DNA of 64,000 nucleotides from contig LJZR01000008.1 of the NCBI GenBank assembly GCA_001314865.1, forward strand, positions 124,001 to 188,000, in the 5' to 3' direction. The position numbers were made by a program, and so were the translations under genes. Position 1 is the stretch's first letter. The number at the start of each line of letters is the position of its first letter. Below are positions 8,597 through 24,091 of this stretch, piece after piece. The DNA comes from Phormidesmis priestleyi Ana (GTDB lineage: Bacteria; Cyanobacteriota; Cyanobacteriia; Phormidesmidales; Phormidesmidaceae). The notes below the pieces were generated by a model. That model was not told the origin of the DNA. It searched no databases and saw nothing but the letters and a program-made list of their open reading frames with translations.

Positions 8597-11371
8597 GTGC
8601 TCGCTGCCGATAATTCTGTTAGCTTGGGTAGTTCCGATAGTTTTGAGATCTCGGATAACAGCGCTTATAGCGCATCTTCGATAGTGAAACTGTCTATAAA
8701 CAGTCCAAGAGATGCTCTGCTCAGTACATCCTTAAGTCCGCAGCTAATCAGAATAGAGGCGGAGGACATGCTGCTCAATAACTATCGCCTCGAATCGATT
8801 GATTTTGCCTCTAATCAAATGGTTGCGAGCTTTTTTGGTGGGCAAAAGAACGAGAAGGGCAGCGTGAGTACTGTCTTTGCAGGGACTGATGGAATCTATG
8901 ATGTGATCTTAGGTTATTTTGACGAAGAGGGCGGCGGGGCAATACTCGATCCACTACTCAACGGCAACTCGTTGGGCAGGCTCAAGCTCGACCAAAAACT
9001 TGGCAGTAACAATGCAACGCCTGACACTTTTGTTCGTCGCACAGTTGGTCACCGTCTTTCCCTTAATCAGGGTGATACTTTCTCCGTACTGGGCTTTGAG
9101 GCTGCCAATGAACATGCTCGGATTGACTATATCGAATTTGTGAAAATTGCCAGTGCGGAGACAGCCTCAAATAAGGCGGATTTGCCTGAACCGATTCGGA
9201 TTAATGTGGGTGGTGACGCCTACACAGACAAATCCGGACAGGTTTGGAGCGCAGACCAATTTTTTGAAGATGGTCAAACCGCTAAAACAGATCGTAGTAT
9301 TTTAGGGAGCCTAAACGATCCGCTTTATCAAAGCGGGCGATATGCTAAGACCATGGACTATCACATTCCGGTTGCCAATGGGGTCTATGACCTAAATTTA
9401 CACTTTGCTGAAGTGGTTTGGGCGAGTGCGGGCGATCGCCTATTCGATATTTTTGTAGAAGGGCAATCACTGAGCGATCGCTTCGACATTTATCAGCAAG
9501 CCGGTCAAAGCAATAAAGCTGTTCAAAAAGGATTTAGCAATATTGTTGTCACCGACGGCAGGTTAGATATTCACTTAAAAGCGGTTAAAAACTACGCTCA
9601 ACTTTCGGGTATTGAAGTTCTCGCCTCTGGCTTAATCGATCCTACAGACGTCGATCCTATAGACATCGATTCTATCGACAATCCTACAGACGCGATTCGG
9701 GTCAACTCAGGCGGCGAAAGCTATATTGATAGCAAAGGCCAAACCTGGTTGGCAGACACCTTTTTTGACGATGGCTGGACAACTTATAAAGAGGTCAGCA
9801 TTCAAGACTCTAACGACGACTTTTTGTACAAAAGTGAGCGCTACGCCAAAACGTTAGACTACTCGGTCGCTGTTGCCAATGGTATTTACGATCTCAATTT
9901 GTTGTTTGCCGAAATTTACTGGTCAAATCCTGGACAGCGAACGTTTGATATTGCGGTTGAAGGTCAGTTGATTACTCAGAATCTTGATATTTACAAAGAA
10001 GTCGGCAAGTTCAAAGCCTTCAATCAGCAAATCAACGAGATTGTTGTGACAGATGGTCGTTTAGATATTTCGCTCACTGGCATTCAAGATAAAGCAAAGA
10101 TCTCTGGTTTTGAGATTTTGCCTGTGGCTTTAAATTCAAGCGCTGATGCTGATGCACCGCCTATTTTACCGGCCACCTCAGGTATGTTGCCGCCCGGCGC
10201 TGTAGCCTTGAGCAACGGTGCGAGCGTGCGCTACGTGAGCCCTACTGGCAGAGGCGATGGCAGCAGTTGGCAGCAGGCCGCTGATATTTCAGAGTTAGAT
10301 CGCCTCATTGAGCAGTCGTCGCCCGGTGATGAAATTTGGATTGCGGGTGATTTAGGGGCCTATAACATGGCTGGTAAATCTATTAGTATAGATAGCGGCA
10401 GTACCGCTGATAAGCCGATTTATATTAGGGGTGTAGCGTCTCAGGTGGGCGGGAATGATACGCCTTTGTTTGTGGGCGATCGCGCTGAAAACTGGGCGCC
10501 AGGTAAAAACAACGGCACGGAAGTATTCCGTTTGCTAAACGGGGCAAAACACTTACACTTTAGCGATTTAGACTTTAAAAACATTGGTAATGGAGCCTTT
10601 CGCTTTGGCGGAGATATCACTGATATTGTGCTAGAAGATATGCGGGCGACGAATGTGCGCCGGTTTGTTGAAAACTATGTGTCAGGGAGCGCCAGATCAG
10701 CCACTGTAAGCAATTTGACGATTCGAGATGTCGATATTAAAGGATTTTCCAAAAGCGCAATTCGCTTGCAGTACAACAGCAACAACATTTTGATTGAAGA
10801 TGTTGTCGGAGACTCGCAGCAGCAAGACGGCGACAACTTTGCCATGGGTGTGCATTTATTGGGCACAGTCAACAATGTGGTGCATCGACGGGTCACGATG
10901 AAAAACGCTGTGCAACGAAAGAGCGATTCAGACTATTGGAACGCTGATGGGTTTGTTACCGACTGGGGCACCTACAACATTACCTATGAAGATACCTTTG
11001 CTTCGGGTAATACCGATGGGGGCTACGATCTAAAATCAAAAGATACGCTACTCGTTCGCGCCGGAGCTGCTGATAACAAACGCAACTTCCGCATCTGGCG
11101 ATCGGCCACTATGATTGATGTCGCAAGCGACGATCCGTTGCGGCGAGGCGGGACTGGCACCAGCGCTCATATTAATGTGCTAGGCAACGAAGGTAACCTT
11201 TCCATTCGAGGCGGCACCTTTAGCGGCGATCGCGGAATCGATAACATTATTTTTGATTTGGACGATCAGGGGAGCGTCACGGTGGATGGCGTAGTGATTA
11301 CAGACGACCTTTACAGGCTGTACACCGTAGAGAAAGGAAAAATAGATCTCAAAAATGTAGTCGAGCCTTAG
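8597..11371 (+). CDS. Large malectin-domain and parallel beta-helix protein
   Basis: A 924-residue predicted carbohydrate-active or surface protein. Residues about 48-185 form a jelly-roll-like segment beginning IRIEAEDM, as in malectin/CBM-like modules. Two malectin domains follow (about 198-345, IRINVGGDAYTD; and about 365-510, IRVNSGGESYID) with the repeated pattern RYAKTxDY ... NGxYDLNLxFAE ... VTDGRLDI. They are joined by an Asp-rich PTDVDPID linker. From about 545 a right-handed beta-helix region begins (VRYVSPTGRGDGSSWQQA), as in pectate-lyase-like proteins. The first codon in frame is GTG at 8597, directly after an in-frame TGA at 8594. There is no N-terminal signal peptide, so export would need another route such as type I secretion, or the true start or frame differs. 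Substrate unknown. Confidence 0.8.
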   Translation: MLAADNSVSLGSSDSFEISDNSAYSASSIVKLSINSPRDALLSTSLSPQLIRIEAEDMLLNNYRLESIDFASNQMVASFFGGQKNEKGSVSTVFAGTDGIYDVILGYFDEEGGGAILDPLLNGNSLGRLKLDQKLGSNNATPDTFVRRTVGHRLSLNQGDTFSVLGFEAANEHARIDYIEFVKIASAETASNKADLPEPIRINVGGDAYTDKSGQVWSADQFFEDGQTAKTDRSILGSLNDPLYQSGRYAKTMDYHIPVANGVYDLNLHFAEVVWASAGDRLFDIFVEGQSLSDRFDIYQQAGQSNKAVQKGFSNIVVTDGRLDIHLKAVKNYAQLSGIEVLASGLIDPTDVDPIDIDSIDNPTDAIRVNSGGESYIDSKGQTWLADTFFDDGWTTYKEVSIQDSNDDFLYKSERYAKTLDYSVAVANGIYDLNLLFAEIYWSNPGQRTFDIAVEGQLITQNLDIYKEVGKFKAFNQQINEIVVTDGRLDISLTGIQDKAKISGFEILPVALNSSADADAPPILPATSGMLPPGAVALSNGASVRYVSPTGRGDGSSWQQAADISELDRLIEQSSPGDEIWIAGDLGAYNMAGKSISIDSGSTADKPIYIRGVASQVGGNDTPLFVGDRAENWAPGKNNGTEVFRLLNGAKHLHFSDLDFKNIGNGAFRFGGDITDIVLEDMRATNVRRFVENYVSGSARSATVSNLTIRDVDIKGFSKSAIRLQYNSNNILIEDVVGDSQQQDGDNFAMGVHLLGTVNNVVHRRVTMKNAVQRKSDSDYWNADGFVTDWGTYNITYEDTFASGNTDGGYDLKSKDTLLVRAGAADNKRNFRIWRSATMIDVASDDPLRRGGTGTSAHINVLGNEGNLSIRGGTFSGDRGIDNIIFDLDDQGSVTVDGVVITDDLYRLYTVEKGKIDLKNVVEP

Positions 11372-13676: not shown

Positions 13677-14579
13677 ATGGAATTTTATACTTGGAATAAC
13701 TATCGCTGCGCTTTTTCAAAAGTGCCGGGTGAGTCTGGAAAACCTGCGCTGCTGCTGATCCATCCGATTGGGGTAGGACTTTCGGGGGAGTTTTGGCAGC
13801 CATTTATCGCTCAGTGGGGGCGGAGTGAAGCGGCTAATAATTCTATTTACAATGTGGATTTGCTGGGCTGTGGCGCAAGTGATATGCCCAAGCGGGCCTA
13901 CCGGCCTGAGGACTGGGCCGAGCAGTTGGCTTGTTTCTTGAGTACGGTAGCAACTGAACCGGTGATACTGGTTGTGCAGGGCGCATTGCTGCCGGTGGCT
14001 GTTCGACTGATGGCACTGCCAGCGGCTGAGAAGGTAAAAGGATTGGTACTGTCTGGCCCGCCTGCTTGGCGCCTGATGACGACCCCAACCGCAGACTGGA
14101 AGCAGTCACTGAGCTGGAGCCTGTTTGCTTCGCCTTTGGGTAATTTGTTTTATCGCTATGCGCGGCGCGAGAAATTTTTGCGGTCGTTTTCGCAGCGGCA
14201 GCTGTTTGAACGGGTAGAAGATGTGACCGATGGCTGGTTACAAATGCTAGAGACCGGCGCAAAGGATCTCGATAGCCGATATGCCGTGTTTTCTTTTTTG
14301 GCTGGATTTTGGCGGCAGGACTATGCTGAGGCGATCGCTCAAATTCAGCAGCCGGTCTTAGTTGTCATGGGCGAAGAAGCCTCTACGATTGATCGCACAA
14401 CCGCGCAGCAAATAAAGAAAGCGACTGATAACCCTAGCCAAAAGCGATTGCAAGACTATATTGATCACTTCCCAAGAGCCCAAGGTGTCAGCATTGCAGG
14501 TCGTAATGTGTTGCCTTATGAGTCATCGGGTGAGTTTGTCGATGCGATCGCACCCTTCATTACCGCGCTTTCCGCCTAA
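13677..14579 (+). CDS. Alpha/beta-hydrolase-fold protein lacking the canonical catalytic residues
   Basis: A 300-residue protein with the alpha/beta-hydrolase fold: LLLIHPIGVGLSGEFW (oxyanion region, about 25-40), NVDLLGCGASDMP (59-71), a helical cap (about 140-215) and a last strand/loop region. The nucleophile elbow, normally G-x-S-x-G, reads V-V-Q-G-A-L (residues 99-104), with no serine, cysteine or aspartate. The usual catalytic histidine near the C-terminus is replaced in GRNVLPYES (N277). From memory, related cyanobacterial proteins share the VVQGALLP and GRNVLPYE motifs, so this looks like a family property rather than damage. A binding or scaffold role, or a different chemistry, is possible. 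Start ATG at 13677. Confidence 0.8.
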   Translation: MEFYTWNNYRCAFSKVPGESGKPALLLIHPIGVGLSGEFWQPFIAQWGRSEAANNSIYNVDLLGCGASDMPKRAYRPEDWAEQLACFLSTVATEPVILVVQGALLPVAVRLMALPAAEKVKGLVLSGPPAWRLMTTPTADWKQSLSWSLFASPLGNLFYRYARREKFLRSFSQRQLFERVEDVTDGWLQMLETGAKDLDSRYAVFSFLAGFWRQDYAEAIAQIQQPVLVVMGEEASTIDRTTAQQIKKATDNPSQKRLQDYIDHFPRAQGVSIAGRNVLPYESSGEFVDAIAPFITALSA

Positions 14580-14645: not shown

Positions 14646-14726
14646 CAGTCGTTACATTTAGTCGTTACATTTAGTCGTTGACAGTCACCTTCAGTCGTTG
14701 ACAGTCACATTTAGTCGTTGACAGTC
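14646..14726. repeat. Tandem repeat at the 3' end of the pseudokinase gene
   Basis: Five copies of a unit built on AGTCGTTACATTT or AGTCGTTGACAGTCAC run from the intergenic region into the last codons and stop codon of the pseudokinase gene, so the terminal residues TVND are encoded within the repeat. Confidence 0.8.
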
Positions 14727-17206
14727 TCAGATTCAGGTGTCGCTTCTAGATTGGTTGAATTAGTCGGGCGATTTCTATTTTCAACCCTGTCGGACATGGT
14801 TCTCGGCGTTTCTTCTGGCTCAGTTGTTGTAGATTCTTCAGGTGGCTCGGCTGGTGGTGCAACTGGCGTAGTCGAAACGTTATCTACCGAAATCGCGAGC
14901 TGATAGTCAATCGCCTGATTAGACCGGTTGACCACAACCACTTCATAAAGCCCCGACTGAGTGAGTGCGCCCGACCAAGTGGTTTGCGCTGAGTCTGCAA
15001 ACACAGCAGGCGAATCATCTGTTTGCTCTGGCGGATACAGCGAAAGCTGAGTGCTCTCTGGTGGTGCGCTCAGGTTTAGCCTCAGCAACTGCCCAGCCGA
15101 GAGCGACATTAAATAAATGCGTCCTTCACCTGGGCCGAGCCGACCGCTGACATCGCGGCTGAGCTGGCCATCGCTAAAGGCAACTGTTTCAGTGACGCTG
15201 CCTGTGCTGATGGCTTGAGCGCGGTTTTCAGCGATCGCATAATACAGCTGCCCAACGGGCTGAGCCAAAAAATCCTGCCCTGCTTGATTGGGAAACAGGT
15301 TGAAAAACTTGGCATCGACCAGATCGTTGAGGGCGCGATCATTCACGTTGGCAGAGGCAATGAGCGATCGCCACTGGCTCCGACTCTCCTCGCTATAGCT
15401 GCCCAAAGCCGTTAGGCTGCTTCTGTCAAGGTTTCCTTCCAACCTGTTGAGCACGCGAGTGGCAATATTGTCCCTACGAATGCGCAACGGTTCATCGGTA
15501 GCCGCCGCCGTCAGCTCCTTGCGTCCGCCGTTGGGGCCTGCTGTGAGCAGTGCCGGATATTCCTGGTAAAACAGTTGATTAACTAGATCATTAAAGTAAC
15601 TTTCGTTAATTCCTAGCGCTTCTCGACGACTCCGAATAGCTTGCTGGCGTGCCGTTTCTTCAGGCGAATATTCACCGTCTCTAAGCGCATTGTTGCTAGC
15701 GAGCTGCGCGCCGTTTCGCTGATCCCCAGTTAGACCAGCATCTAACGGTGAACGATTATTGCGCGCGAGCGCATACAGCATTAGCGCTGTACCGGCTAAG
15801 CCTAAGGTCAGCAGCAGTCCAATGAGTGCCTGACTCGCGCCGGGTTTATCGCCTGATTCTCTGGGCCTGAGTTCTCGTTCGTATACATTAGACTCACTAG
15901 CGGCGCTGTCTCGGTAGCCGATGGGTTCAGCGGGCATCACCTCAGGTGCGGTTACCGACAGCATCATTGTGTCATCGTCATAGTCCGTTTCTCCAGCTAT
16001 ACCCGTCATGTCAGGCACTCCAGTTGCAGCGCCCCCTATCCCAACTGAGGGATAAAGCTGACTAAAAGTCGCTGCTATGCTGCCATCCTCATATCCGCTG
16101 TCTGCGACACCCACCCAAGGTACATCAGGAGAAGTTTCGCTCGCCTGCAAAGTGCTAAGCACTGCGTCGGCAGTTGGAAAACGCTCACTGGGCGCTGCCG
16201 ACAGCATCTTTCTTAAAATTTGGCCTAGTTTAGGACTCAGCAATTCATATCCCCGCCATGAGCCATGCTGCAAATCATGCAGCATTTCGGGTGATTCACC
16301 CGTGGCCAGCACCAGCATAGTGGCCGCTAGCCCGTATAAATCAGTCGTTGGATCGACTTCATCAGCCTCTTCATCAATTTTTTCATCAATTTTTTCATTC
16401 GCCTCAAAGCCTTCCGTGTTTTTGGCTCCAAAGCCTTCTGTGTTTTTGGCTCCAAAGCCTTCTATGCCCTTGGCTTCGGCTGATTCAGCAAATGCTTGTG
16501 TTTCGAGCAGTCCTTTTAGCGATTCTGGGCCTTCAGAGGCTGAGACTTCAGATGCTGAGACTTCAGAGACTGAGACTTCAGAGACTGAGACTTCAGAGGC
16601 TGAGACTTCAGAGGCTGTGCTCTTGCCAGTGCCCGCCGTGTCTTGCTGCTTGAGGTCGCCAAAGCCAATGAGTACAGGTAGTCCATCAGCCTGCCTAAGA
16701 ATGATCTTTTTAGGAGAGATGTTGCCGTGGATAATGCCCTTGCTGTGAATGTGCGAAAGGACGGGCAGGAGCTGATAAAGCAGCTGTATGATTTCAGTTT
16801 CTGAAAAAGAGCCGCCCCATTGCTGTCGGTCTTCTAACAGGGACTGATAGCTAGGGCCTTGCACATAGTCTCTCACTCGGTATAGCTTGCTGCCCTGCGT
16901 ATTTGCAGAGGTCGGATCGGCTAGCGTCGGATCGGCAGGCGTCGGATAGAACTTAGGGATTTGCTCGTGGTCTAACTGGGCTAGTGCCTGCACCGACCGA
17001 TCGAGCAGTGCTTGGGTGCGGGCGATCGCACTATCCTCGTCAGCGGGCGGAATGAATTCTTGGACAACGCACAGCGCATTGCCATTATGTCGGTCTTGAG
17101 CCAGATAGGTTCGATGAGACAAATCCTCGCTTAACACCTGCACGACTTGGTAGCGATCGCCCAATCGCAACGTTGGTTTATCCTGCTGACCACTCTCTGA
17201 ATTCAT
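14711..17206 (-). CDS. Membrane pseudokinase with C-terminal PPC-like domain
   Basis: An 831-residue protein with an N-terminal Ser/Thr-kinase-like domain (about 14-355). Key catalytic residues are replaced: the beta3 lysine position reads CVVQEF (Gln49), the HRD motif reads HGN (160-162) and the DFG motif reads GFG (181-183). Between the DFG position and the rest of the C-lobe is a low-complexity insert (about 190-285) made of SEVSA and FGAKNTEG repeats and acidic residues. A single transmembrane helix lies at about 460-481. The extracytoplasmic part has a helical region (510-665) and a beta-rich domain (about 690-785) resembling bacterial pre-peptidase C-terminal (PPC) domains, followed by a Pro/Glu/Thr-rich tail. 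It is probably a cytoplasmic sensor or scaffold linked to an envelope domain. Confidence 0.82.
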   Translation of the reverse strand: MNSESGQQDKPTLRLGDRYQVVQVLSEDLSHRTYLAQDRHNGNALCVVQEFIPPADEDSAIARTQALLDRSVQALAQLDHEQIPKFYPTPADPTLADPTSANTQGSKLYRVRDYVQGPSYQSLLEDRQQWGGSFSETEIIQLLYQLLPVLSHIHSKGIIHGNISPKKIILRQADGLPVLIGFGDLKQQDTAGTGKSTASEVSASEVSVSEVSVSEVSASEVSASEGPESLKGLLETQAFAESAEAKGIEGFGAKNTEGFGAKNTEGFEANEKIDEKIDEEADEVDPTTDLYGLAATMLVLATGESPEMLHDLQHGSWRGYELLSPKLGQILRKMLSAAPSERFPTADAVLSTLQASETSPDVPWVGVADSGYEDGSIAATFSQLYPSVGIGGAATGVPDMTGIAGETDYDDDTMMLSVTAPEVMPAEPIGYRDSAASESNVYERELRPRESGDKPGASQALIGLLLTLGLAGTALMLYALARNNRSPLDAGLTGDQRNGAQLASNNALRDGEYSPEETARQQAIRSRREALGINESYFNDLVNQLFYQEYPALLTAGPNGGRKELTAAATDEPLRIRRDNIATRVLNRLEGNLDRSSLTALGSYSEESRSQWRSLIASANVNDRALNDLVDAKFFNLFPNQAGQDFLAQPVGQLYYAIAENRAQAISTGSVTETVAFSDGQLSRDVSGRLGPGEGRIYLMSLSAGQLLRLNLSAPPESTQLSLYPPEQTDDSPAVFADSAQTTWSGALTQSGLYEVVVVNRSNQAIDYQLAISVDNVSTTPVAPPAEPPEESTTTEPEETPRTMSDRVENRNRPTNSTNLEATPESETVND
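16531..16617. repeat. 15-bp in-frame tandem repeat, about six copies
   Basis: Units of GAGGCTGAGACTTCA with small changes encode the SEVSA/SEVSV repeats in the pseudokinase insert. A second repeat of 24 bp at about 16419-16466 encodes FGAKNTEG twice. Confidence 0.85.
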
Positions 17207-17467
17207 GACCTATTTCTCCTGAGAGTAAACGAGATGCCGAGCGCTAACACAGCGTTAATACTAAAAATTGTACAGAAGTACCAACCGGCTATACAGAACT
17301 CCCAGGTAGATTAGCAGGCAATCTGCCTATCAAGATAGATGTCAATATGGCCAATGTATGACCGGTGCCAGATACATCTTATTTCCATCTGTATTTTCAT
17401 TTATGTAGTGTAGTACTGGTGTATAACACTGATACCATTCAATATTGATCACAGCCCTCCTCTGCCC

Positions 17468-18763
17468 ATGAAGTCTCTCGGTCGCCATATTTTAGTCGAG
17501 TTCCATGGTTGCTCCGCCGAAATCCTCAACGACGTGCCTCGCATTGAGCACGACATGCTGGAAGCCGCAACGCGATCTGGAGCTACCATTATCAACTCGG
17601 TATTTCATCACTTTTCACCCTTCGGCGTATCCGGCGTTATCGTCATTCAAGAAAGTCATCTGGCGATTCATACCTGGCCAGAATATCGCTACGCAGCGGT
17701 TGATTTATTTACCTGCGGCGATTCAGTGAATCCTTGGGTGTCTTACGAGAGTCTTAAAACCGCGTTTGAAGCAGAACATGGTTCTGCCATTGAGCTCAAT
17801 CGCGGTCAGCTAGAGCTGCTCGAAAAAATTAATATTGATCTGGGCGATATGCGCGACCAGGCCACGCAAAAGCTGATGCCGCCTAAGCAAAGCCGTAGCG
17901 TATGGTTCACTGACAAAGATGACAATATTGCGCTCTCAATTCGGCACAAGGGCGATCGCCTCTTTCAAGAAAAGTCTCCCTATCAGCTGGTTGAAATTTA
18001 CGACACGTTTAAATACGGCAAAATGCTCACCGTCGATAAGATGGTGATGTGTAGTGAAAAGGACGAAACCGCCTATCACGAGATGATTATTCATGTGCCG
18101 ATGCTGGCCCATGCCACCGCTACACCTGGCCTGAAAAAGGCTCTAGTGATCGGCGGCGGGGACGGTGGCAGCGTGCGCGAAATTTTGCGTCATCCACAGG
18201 TAGAGAGCGTCACCATGGTCGAAATTGACGAGGTGGTCGTGCGAGCTTCTCGAAAGTTTTTACCCTCGCTTTCTTCTTCCCTAGACGATCCCAAGCTGAA
18301 TTTAATCATTGGCGATGGCATCAATTATTTAGAAGATGCTCAGGACGAAAGTTTTGATTTTATTGTGGTGGACTCATCCGATCCGGTCGGACCATCGGTG
18401 GGGCTATTTAGTGCCGAATTTTATAAAAACGTTCACCGTGTGCTGACACCGCATGGGGTAATTGCTGCCCAAAGCGAATCACCACGCTTCAACCAAGCGG
18501 CCTTTGTAGACCTGACTGGCTGTTTGCAAAACATTTTTGGGCCGGAAAATATCCATACCTATTTGGCATTTATTCAGACTTACCCAACGGGGATGTGGAG
18601 TTTTACCTATGGCACCAAAAACGGCATTCATCCGGTCGATGCATTAGACCCAGCAGGGGCCACTGAGTTCACGAAAAAACATGATTTGCAGTATTACAAC
18701 CCTGATGTTCATCGGGCGGCGTTTTGTCTGCCAACGTTCATTCAAAACCTGTTGGCCCGGTGA
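17468..18763 (+). CDS. Fused S-adenosylmethionine decarboxylase and spermidine synthase (SpeD-SpeE)
   Basis: A single 431-residue frame joins two polyamine enzymes. Residues 1 to about 130 are a bacterial AdoMet decarboxylase: the self-processing site is in [13 protein letters not shown] with Ser63 (pyruvoyl precursor) and His68, and Cys83 lies in FTCGD, the same spacing as in stand-alone SpeD of the Thermotoga type. Residues about 143-431 are an aminopropyltransferase: [16 protein letters not shown] (227-234), VEID (251-254) and the catalytic aspartate in [10 protein letters not shown] (about 301-310). The fusion would make decarboxylated AdoMet and transfer its aminopropyl group to putrescine, giving spermidine. 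Self-cleavage would release a small beta chain and leave the pyruvoyl alpha chain attached to SpeE. The agmatinase gene follows 21 nt downstream. Confidence 0.93.
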
Positions 18764-22567: not shown

Positions 22568-22711
22568 GTTTATCAATCCAATTAAGTCTGATACTACTTT
22601 AGGGAGTAAATGGGGCAATCTATAGCATGTCTTCAGTGCAGTTTTAGATAGTATTTGTCTAAAAACGCGCAAAAGCACCCGTGATCTTCTCAATTGGTCT
22701 CATGTGTTGCA

Positions 22712-24091
22712 ATGGTTGTAAACGGCGCATTTCAGAATTCTCAGGCTGACAATTTCACGGCTCAAGCCGACAGCACAGCCTCTGAGACAATGCCAATAGA
22801 GTTCTATCTCGCCCAGCAGCAAATCTACGACGATCTGCTAGAAGCGGTTCGAACACTCCCGGCAGTTGAGGCTCTCGCCGAGTTCGAAGCAACTTTCTTT
22901 GGTCCTAGCAATTCGCTAGATGCCGATGTATCTCCCTTCCTATACAGAATTTTGTTTGCTGACAACGAAGCGGAGTTTCGTAATACGCTCAAACGCGCCT
23001 GCTACATTTTTGTAAATAACTGGGATTTGGCGCGCCAGGGTGACATGCTGCACTTACTGCTAGAGCTTTTTGAGCAGCCGAGCCTGACCAAAAGCACGCT
23101 CTCACCAAGCCTTAAGCGCCTGCGAAATTGGCTACTTAATTTTGCCAATAGCAAAGATTTTGAAGAGCTTGAGCTATTTGCCAGCCAGCGAACTCAAAAT
23201 AGCCGCAGCAGCAACTGGAGCTTTCGCTACACGACCTATCAGCTCATTGGTCAATATATTGATGAAAATAATTCGTTAGAGCAACGCGAAGCTGCCCGAT
23301 CCCTATCTCGGCGAATTAAAGATAAATATAAACATGATCTGGCCATGTACACGGCCTTTTCACAAAACTCCTCGCGACTAAACCGCAAATACGCTAATCC
23401 GACGGTGCTAGGCGATGAGGTGCTTAGGCTGATCAAGGCCATTTTGGTGCGGCGGGGACAGTATAGCTATCACAACGTAGCTCGCCTGTTTCAGCAGCAA
23501 ACTCACGAAAGTTCTTACAGTGACTATAAGGAGAGCCTAATTGAATATCTGTGCTTTTCGATTAGTGATCTGGCCTTTTTGAATGTGATTGAAGCTGGGC
23601 TGAACACCAAGCTGCCGCCGCTGTATCAAATGCACGATAGGGATGCAGTCGATCCGTCTTTAAACTTAAGAACCTGCAACCGTCTCATCGATTTTCTGAT
23701 TACAGAGGATAAGAATATGCCCTCGATGCTGTTTGTCAGAATGCTCGAACAGGGCAATCCGTTGAATATTGCTGTGATGTTGCTCAAAATTGTGCTGATT
23801 TCTCCCAACTCTCAGCTGTATTTAGAGGCGCGGTTGGCCAATCTAATTAACTACTACAAGCAGTTTACAGAAGCTGAGTGTCAAGGCATTATTCAGCTGT
23901 TAGAAATTTTTGGTGTGACCTTTGCGATTTACAGCGACAATGTCGAGTACAACCTGGTGCAGGTTTCTGATAGCTCTAACGGATCGGCAACGCCTTCTGA
24001 TGATGATTTTCGAATATTTTCACGTAGCTTTAGGGCAGCGCAGAAACGGGCAAAGCTTGAGCTTGAGCAACGGCAGCTGGTTAAAGACTGA
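22712..24091 (+). CDS. Conserved hypothetical protein, all-helical
   Basis: A protein of about 459 residues with no signal peptide or transmembrane segment. The sequence is rich in helical patterns with scattered aromatic and basic residues (for example FRYTTYQLIGQYI, LARQGDMLHLLLELFEQ, RLIKAILVRRGQYSYHNVARLF). The C-terminal end is charged (SRSFRAAQKRAKLELEQRQ). I do not recognise a domain, though a protein of this kind appears to be conserved in cyanobacteria. The ATG at 22712 is preferred to the TTG at 22694. It converges on larC with a gap of only 42 nt. Confidence 0.7.
   Translation: MVVNGAFQNSQADNFTAQADSTASETMPIEFYLAQQQIYDDLLEAVRTLPAVEALAEFEATFFGPSNSLDADVSPFLYRILFADNEAEFRNTLKRACYIFVNNWDLARQGDMLHLLLELFEQPSLTKSTLSPSLKRLRNWLLNFANSKDFEELELFASQRTQNSRSSNWSFRYTTYQLIGQYIDENNSLEQREAARSLSRRIKDKYKHDLAMYTAFSQNSSRLNRKYANPTVLGDEVLRLIKAILVRRGQYSYHNVARLFQQQTHESSYSDYKESLIEYLCFSISDLAFLNVIEAGLNTKLPPLYQMHDRDAVDPSLNLRTCNRLIDFLITEDKNMPSMLFVRMLEQGNPLNIAVMLLKIVLISPNSQLYLEARLANLINYYKQFTEAECQGIIQLLEIFGVTFAIYSDNVEYNLVQVSDSSNGSATPSDDDFRIFSRSFRAAQKRAKLELEQRQLVKD

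Follow-up and report, generated by a model that had tools for sequence, protein, structure and literature searches.

What becomes of a membrane kinase whose catalytic residues have been replaced: does the protein still work, and if so, with which of its parts? The question is raised by a gene on contig LJZR01000008.1 of the cyanobacterium Phormidesmis priestleyi Ana (GenBank assembly GCA_001314865.1), of which positions 124,001 to 188,000 of the forward strand, a stretch of 64,000 nucleotides hereafter called the window, were analysed. A preliminary description of the gene, made from its letters, had read its product as a membrane pseudokinase with an outer domain resembling PPC. We conclude that the gene probably encodes a membrane pseudokinase of the same kind as SpkE (Slr1443) of Synechocystis, kept for its outer domain and its cytosolic scaffold rather than for phosphorylation; because the parts that move phosphate are gone and the anchor and outer domain are preserved, it probably works by binding. 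Most bacterial pseudokinases have gone unstudied, and accounts of SpkE disagree, one describing it as inactive and another as active (both as cited in PMC11863333).

Loss of the catalytic residues

The features below were assigned on the minus strand of the window, with residues numbered as in the window protein. G000 denotes the genome of the window protein, other G numbers denote other genomes, and L numbers denote relative sequences.

14711..17206, minus strand: membrane pseudokinase gene, whole (open reading frame with ATG start, 831 amino acids; Pfam; AlphaFold2 model)
16127..17164, minus strand: kinase-fold domain, residues 15-360 (Pfam; AlphaFold2 model; PknB 2fum, Z 22.2)
17114..17131, minus strand: glycine-rich loop lost, residues 26-31, SEDLSH where G055 has GRGGFG (orthologue alignment)
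17060..17062, minus strand: beta-3 Lys replaced by Gln49 (orthologue alignment)
16994..16996, minus strand: alpha-C Glu replaced by Ser71 (orthologue alignment)
16721..16729, minus strand: HRD replaced by HGN, residues 160-162 (orthologue alignment)
16706..16708, minus strand: catalytic-loop Asn replaced by Lys167 (orthologue alignment)
16658..16666, minus strand: DFG replaced by GFG, residues 181-183 (orthologue alignment)
16412..16639, minus strand: low-complexity expansion in the activation segment, residues 190-265, found only in the window protein (alignment; Tandem Repeats Finder)

The three changed landmarks proposed earlier (Q49, HGN and GFG) stand in the alignment where the orthologues have Lys, HRD and DFG, and the residue set of an active kinase, consisting of the beta-3 Lys and the Asp residues of HRD and DFG, is replaced by Q49, N162 and G181. 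The activation and P+1 motif TRxGKxGYxPxEQ is also gone, and a low-complexity repeat stretch stands where G055 has TRIGKVGYVPPEQ. Tandem Repeats Finder placed tandem arrays at 16405-16475 and 16531-16617, with repeat units chiefly of 15 and 24 bases. The preliminary description had counted this long insert among the features kept, which was wrong because the insert is a tandem-repeat expansion (residues ~190-265) that the 12 relatives aligned with the window protein all lack.

The fold itself is predicted to be kept, as had been claimed. The Pfam Pkinase model matches residues 70-187 (E 7.3e-10; no other family lies above the cut-off), and the AlphaFold2 model, which was built with 26 relatives (mean predicted local distance difference test, pLDDT, 70.5; predicted template modelling score 0.44), contains the N- and C-lobes of a Hanks-type kinase and resembles Mycobacterium tuberculosis PknB (2fum) at Z 22.2 and a root-mean-square deviation (rmsd) of 4.0 over 249 residues. 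The pLDDT falls below 50 at residues 190-264 and 358-454 and in some shorter stretches; the outer part is predicted well. A kinase fold in which at least one of three catalytic motifs is degraded defines a pseudokinase, and the window protein, with its fold kept and its catalytic motifs lost, bears out that designation. Such a loss of residues would mean that the protein has no kinase activity.

All of the control orthologues (26/26) retain the Lys, the HRD Asp and the DFG Asp, so the loss in the window protein is not a matter of chance. These controls were the best-scoring matches within the order plus L041, minus the window protein, three rows that were partial and L011, which is degenerate; L016, L032 and L037 (partial) and L039 and L040 (duplicates of L010 and L011) were left out of both the controls and the family table described below. 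Deviations among members of the order outside the controls were a change of Lys to Arg in L054 and an HRN motif in L055, L208, L209 and L210.

A misaligned catalytic region, an objection that the preliminary description had itself raised, was rejected since the orthologues pin every motif; the alignment is fixed because the congeners are 42-50% identical to the window protein and one of them is fully syntenic. An assembly or sequencing artefact is scarcely credible: the genome is a draft of 136 contigs, but the changes are many, coherent and in frame, with no stop or frameshift, and the neighbouring genes are normal.

Descent from a canonical kinase

The orthologue in Leptolyngbya sp. BC1307 (G055), which belongs to the same genus, is canonical and lies between the same neighbour genes.

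13677..14579, plus strand: alpha/beta hydrolase (Pfam), adjoining the family kinase in G015, G016, G020 and several congeners
17468..18763, plus strand: AdoMet decarboxylase-spermidine synthase (speD-speE) fusion (Pfam), head-to-head with the pseudokinase gene

Gene order is identical in the two genomes, at identities of 73% for the hydrolase, 87% for the speD-speE fusion and 79% for an agmatinase-like gene (60-87% overall); in the window, 261 bases (17207-17467) separate the pseudokinase gene from the speD-speE fusion. As judged from the sequences, the window pseudokinase descended from a canonical syntenic kinase. Six further genomes represent the genus; the kinase is canonical in four of them (G053, G055, G056 and G057, the last with no speDE match), missing from G054 and half-degraded in G052, a Leptolyngbya foveolarum bin in which Lys has become Gln, the alpha-C Glu has become Asp and DFG has become NFA, with HRD intact.

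A single loss shared with G052 was considered and rejected, marginally, by an approximately unbiased test of the G000+G052 grouping (p 0.024). In the tree of the neighbours and the outer domain, G000 falls in with two genomes whose copies are canonical, G053 and G056 (82/99), the neighbours alone do not settle the branching (supports 32, 52, 64 and 75, the G054-G057 branch excepted), and the tree of the kinase part pairs G000 with G052 at a support of 38. Taken together, the trees marginally favour separate catalytic losses in G000 and G052.

Constraint on the kinase fold and the outer domain

Conserved columns, meaning those conserved in at least 95% of the 26 orthologues, numbered 102 in the kinase part and 44 in the C-terminal part, of which the window protein loses 32/102 and 3/44, respectively (p 0.0013). 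Within the kinase part, the losses fall on 18/23 active-site and activation-segment columns versus 14/79 other columns (Fisher p 1.5e-7). When the controls were left out one at a time (n = 26), active-site loss was 0 in 25 and 3 in L036, other kinase loss ranged from 0 to 10 and C-terminal loss from 0 to 12. The window protein thus keeps 65/79 of the non-catalytic conserved kinase columns, and all 17 listed conserved columns from D289 to L353 are retained.

The end branch of the window protein measures 0.76 in the kinase part versus 0.30 in the C-terminal part, compared with 0.15-0.30 and 0.19-0.34 in the canonical congeners. The same pattern appears in amino-acid differences: the kinase part differs from the four canonical congeners at 50-53% (26-30% for G055 versus the other three), and the C-terminal part at 38-45% (37-42% for G055 versus those three). 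By this comparison of sequences, the outer domain is under normal constraint and has been changing at the congeners' pace. Fourfold degenerate sites of the gene differ from those of five congeners at 55-75%, with 43/70 kinase sites and 64/91 C-terminal sites differing from G055, and the frame is open over all 831 codons without a stop or frameshift. The clustering of the losses in the active site, together with the kept scaffold, favours a pseudokinase with a job; retention of the scaffold would imply a function.

Several observations weigh against that interpretation. The 23 active-site columns were picked from textbook roles after the list of losses had been seen, and the kinase part is faster outside the active site too, the 14/79 lost there standing against a highest control value of 10. 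The losses of G052 are spread evenly (6/23 versus 16/79, p 0.57) and resemble general relaxation, and the congener without the gene, G054, also lacks speDE. In a neutral simulation of 277 codons, the probability of an open frame was 0.055, 0.009 and 0.001 at 0.1, 0.2 and 0.3 substitutions per site, and because of the first of these values a short and recent decay is compatible with the open frame. Lastly, for SpkE, Zorina 2014 is cited for kinase activity, and also in connection with cold shock (PMC11863333), so that a degenerate member may keep activity.

The simulation, the unspecific relaxation in G052 and the empty locus of G054 speak for a kinase domain in decay, where only the anchored outer domain is selected and the kinase is a remnant heading for deletion, as do the long kinase branch, the repeat expansion inside the activation segment and the existence of kinase-less homologues (L236, L237, L240 and L241), which seem to have gone that way. 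We consider decay rather unlikely, given the 65 non-catalytic columns and the whole D289-L353 set that have been kept, the concentration of the losses in the active site, and a frame that has stayed open although fourfold sites have diverged so far from the congeners.

A second alternative, that the protein is still an enzyme, either with a changed chemistry or with its catalytic residues moved elsewhere, strikes us as very unlikely. SidJ, for example, has another activity. It is named as a pseudokinase-fold protein in PMC12599244 and, like the activity for which Zorina 2014 is cited, would favour this alternative; set against it, the window protein has lost the beta-3 Lys, alpha-C Glu, glycine loop, HRD Asp, Asn, DFG Asp and P+1 motif altogether, and no replacement Lys or Asp was noticed on inspection of the alignment by eye.

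Architecture of the protein

Beyond the kinase fold, three further parts were assigned to the pseudokinase.

15758..15838, minus strand: membrane helix, residues 457-483, single (AlphaFold2 model; hydrophobic-segment scan)
15203..15664, minus strand: helical domain, residues 515-668, thought extracytoplasmic (models; class-wide profile matches)
14882..15193, minus strand: beta-sandwich, residues 672-775, of PliG/PPC/GOLD-type fold (predicted models, structure comparison)

The single predicted hydrophobic helix and the predicted C-terminal beta-sandwich agree with the single membrane pass and beta-rich terminal domain described beforehand. When the outer part was modelled alone (mean pLDDT 90), helices came first and the beta-sandwich second. 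Residues 672-775 resemble the lysozyme inhibitor PliG (4dzg; Z 13.3, rmsd 3.5, 104 aligned), a likeness of predicted fold that implies no function, and the PPC domain of Bacillus anthracis collagenase (5sv5) gave Z 10.6 and rmsd 3.0 over 101 aligned residues, within the Z of 10-11.4 at which collagen-binding or PPC domains match the modelled sandwich. No Pfam family reached the cut-off in the outer parts of the 22 members scanned, PPC being found in 1/22 at E 0.069, and PF04151 gave no match in the window protein at E 0.1. The outer domain is therefore PPC-like as a predicted fold, and the name fails as a Pfam family, for which it lies below the cut-off.

A hydrophobic segment is present in 147/158 family members, 17 of the 147 having a second one. 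Lys and Arg residues are commoner before this segment than after it (2.34 versus 1.71 per 20 residues across the 147; more before the segment in 80 members, more after it in 33 and as many on either side in 34; 4 versus 3 in the window protein), and for this reason a topology with the kinase in the cytosol and the outer domain with its sandwich outside is weakly favoured.

Repeated catalytic loss across the family

The outer-domain profile, searched against 388 genomes of the class at a threshold of E 1e-20, matched 212 of them, many of the weaker matches covering the helical half only. The window protein fits a family, homologous over its whole length, that consists of a kinase, a membrane helix and a helical/beta outer domain. 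A table of 158 relatives was compiled from the best matches by E-value, 19 second copies from genomes of family code f32, and 12 rows from 18 odd-looking genomes. Of these relatives, 24/158 have lost the Lys, the catalytic Asp, the DFG Asp or the entire kinase (24/139 without the f32 second copies), a proportion that is not a rate because the sample was partly picked for odd members. The 24 include the window protein and the G052 copy. The catalytic Asn was no criterion, L036 (Asn to His) being counted intact, and L116 and L118, whose kinase and outer domain are read in separate frames at a single locus, were kept out of the kinase-less class. At least 7 changes are needed on a quickly built outer-domain tree, which has 137 rows, 22 of them with losses; the other 21/158 rows (2 with losses) were less than 80% filled and were left out.

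The preliminary description had suggested a search for HGN in other cyanobacteria, and the motif does recur in a separate lineage, as HGNLSP in three genomes and HGNLSL in a fourth. In G086, G100 and G113, which belong to one genus, an HGN copy (with Gln for Lys and NFG or HFG for DFG) stands in tandem with a canonical copy, pairing the pseudokinases L195, L196 and L232 with the canonical L140, L139 and L134; the fourth case is the second copy of G076. These HGN copies sit apart from the window protein on the outer-domain tree. Inheritance from an old pseudokinase copy was rejected, the f32 second copies (L213-L231), which match the outer domain in part, being canonical in 19/19; these tandem copies we take to be Nostocaceae-like, the family name being a guess.

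Other losses take different forms. Four genomes that share a genus carry the HRN motif (L055, L208, L209 and L210), and in these copies Lys, alpha-C Glu, Asn and DFG are unchanged. G323 and G364 have exchanged the beta-3 Lys for Gln and the alpha-C Glu for Lys. The single cases are G039, where Lys has become Arg, G339, with Ser in place of Lys, and G384, with NFG for DFG. The members in G243 and G290, small genomes of family code f2, lack the Lys, and in genus g55 the motif is HGQ in G257 and G293 and HRN in G269. The kinase is missing altogether from L236, L237, L240 and L241 (G368, G388, G303 and G123, the last also of g55), which are frames of 328-355 codons with the hydrophobic segment and the outer domain; no kinase match was found in their flanks, about 1.2-1.5 kb on each side, and the rest of those genomes could hold one.

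Two details of individual members may be noted. In L177 and L194, the beta-3 Lys is Gln and the alpha-C Glu is Lys, the glycine loop reads GQGKLG, and HRD and DFG are kept; the Lys in this loop is possibly a relocated lysine, an arrangement found in WNK kinases. In G299, the corresponding anchor and outer-domain gene (L247) seems broken by stops.

Catalysis removed pointwise, as in the window protein, G052, the HGN copies and Synechocystis SpkE, or a kinase that is absent, as in four genomes, with the anchored outer domain kept each time, would be expected if the outer domain had a conserved job for which phosphorylation is optional, a generalisation that we advance tentatively and at somewhat less than even confidence. 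A bacterial pseudokinase is a known kind of protein; the repeated loss within one family is the new part, and the literature searched, mostly openly accessible papers, yielded no account of catalysis being lost time and again in the SpkE-type family.

The tandem pairs also bear on the idea that the pseudokinase is the allosteric partner of an active kinase, whose activity it adjusts; this idea is a special case of a retained pseudokinase and overlaps with it. The 30 Pkinase matches in the window protein's own genome, among them a 702-aa relative with HRD and DFG intact, could supply such a partner; conversely, no other kinase-like gene occurs among the 10 proteins around the pseudokinase gene that were scanned with Pfam, and the window protein is the sole outer-domain profile match of its genome at E 1e-20. 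An allosteric partnership of this specific form appears improbable to us. The family kinase profile recovered 26 of the 30 matches (4/30 were not recovered), the motif could be read in 21/26 with 5 unreadable, and among these 21 HGN occurs only in the window protein.

SpkE of Synechocystis

SpkE has been described as lacking the catalytic Asp and other residues, with no activity shown, as belonging to the class cbSTKI-other with a long C-terminal part left unidentified in that source, and as lying close on the tree to kinases of marine Synechococcus and Prochlorococcus (PMC2176072). Its inactivity is restated in PMC3102658, and it is named a pseudokinase in PMC12189002. As to its role, Kim 2004 is cited for a link to pilin modification (PMC11863333), spkE is listed among pilin-regulation genes (PMC7076178), and an spkE mutant grows slowly under diurnal conditions (PMC10651672).

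Two plasmid contigs of G257 match Synechocystis sp. PCC 7338 at 100%, and G293 shares its genus code, g55. The motif was readable in 20/30 Pkinase loci of these two genomes, one of which (L280) is spurious; HxD is kept in 17/19 of the others, and the remaining 2 are the family members, one per genome. Because these are the only readable kinases without HxD, SpkE is likely the Synechocystis member of the family, an assignment made through G257 and G293. The small f2 genomes with family members may be marine Synechococcus- or Prochlorococcus-like organisms.

Proposed role

The window protein, predicted to cross the membrane once, belongs to a family of cyanobacterial Ser/Thr kinases that is presumed to include SpkE (Slr1443), and its kinase fold would have lost ATP binding and phosphotransfer in the window lineage. 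The outer helical and beta-sandwich module would do an envelope job that depends on the membrane anchor, with the kinase-shaped cytosolic part offering a surface for docking or for allosteric control rather than phosphorylating. These features would fit what was first suggested, either signalling from envelope to cytoplasm in which nothing is phosphorylated or a scaffold, and the SpkE literature points to a role that may lie near the envelope or pili. The family offers intact, half-degraded, fully pseudokinase and kinase-free members, which let a non-catalytic role be probed by swapping natural variants in Synechocystis.

Elsewhere in the window, a 924-aa protein at 8597-11371 carries malectin domain matches (Pfam, 6.4e-62), and a 465-aa open reading frame at 22694-24091 is matched by neither Pfam nor NCBIfam at E 0.1.

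Comparison with known systems

The window protein resembles PknB-type membrane Ser/Thr kinases in its fold and in its kinase-then-membrane layout, and differs from them in having no PASTA match in Pfam and in the loss of its catalytic residues. EssB/YukC of type VIIb secretion is likewise a membrane-anchored pseudokinase, with the glycine loop and every catalytic motif degraded (PMC12599244), although its activation loop is reduced and that of the window protein expanded; kinship was compared at the level of the kinase fold, and no secretion gene was found among the 10 window proteins scanned with Pfam, from 8.6 to 24.1 kb.

Seven bacterial pseudokinase families are listed in the same source (ActPs1-3, GLW, CP1, DYD and DLHK; PMC12599244), of which GLW, too, has its membrane anchor behind the kinase. 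CP1, a family that is in part cyanobacterial, is without membrane regions and carries COG3899 (PMC12599244), unlike the window protein, which has a membrane helix and in Pfam matches kinase models only. SpkE is likewise a Hanks-type kinase with a long C-terminal part and, like the window protein, without the catalytic Asp. In the copies of G257 and G293, the motifs read HGQ and DFS or NFS and the activation region is shortened, in contrast to the HGN, GFG and expanded segment of the window protein. As far as the descriptions allow a contrast, the seven families are pseudokinases throughout or largely so, whereas the family of the window protein is mostly canonical and has lost catalysis case by case.

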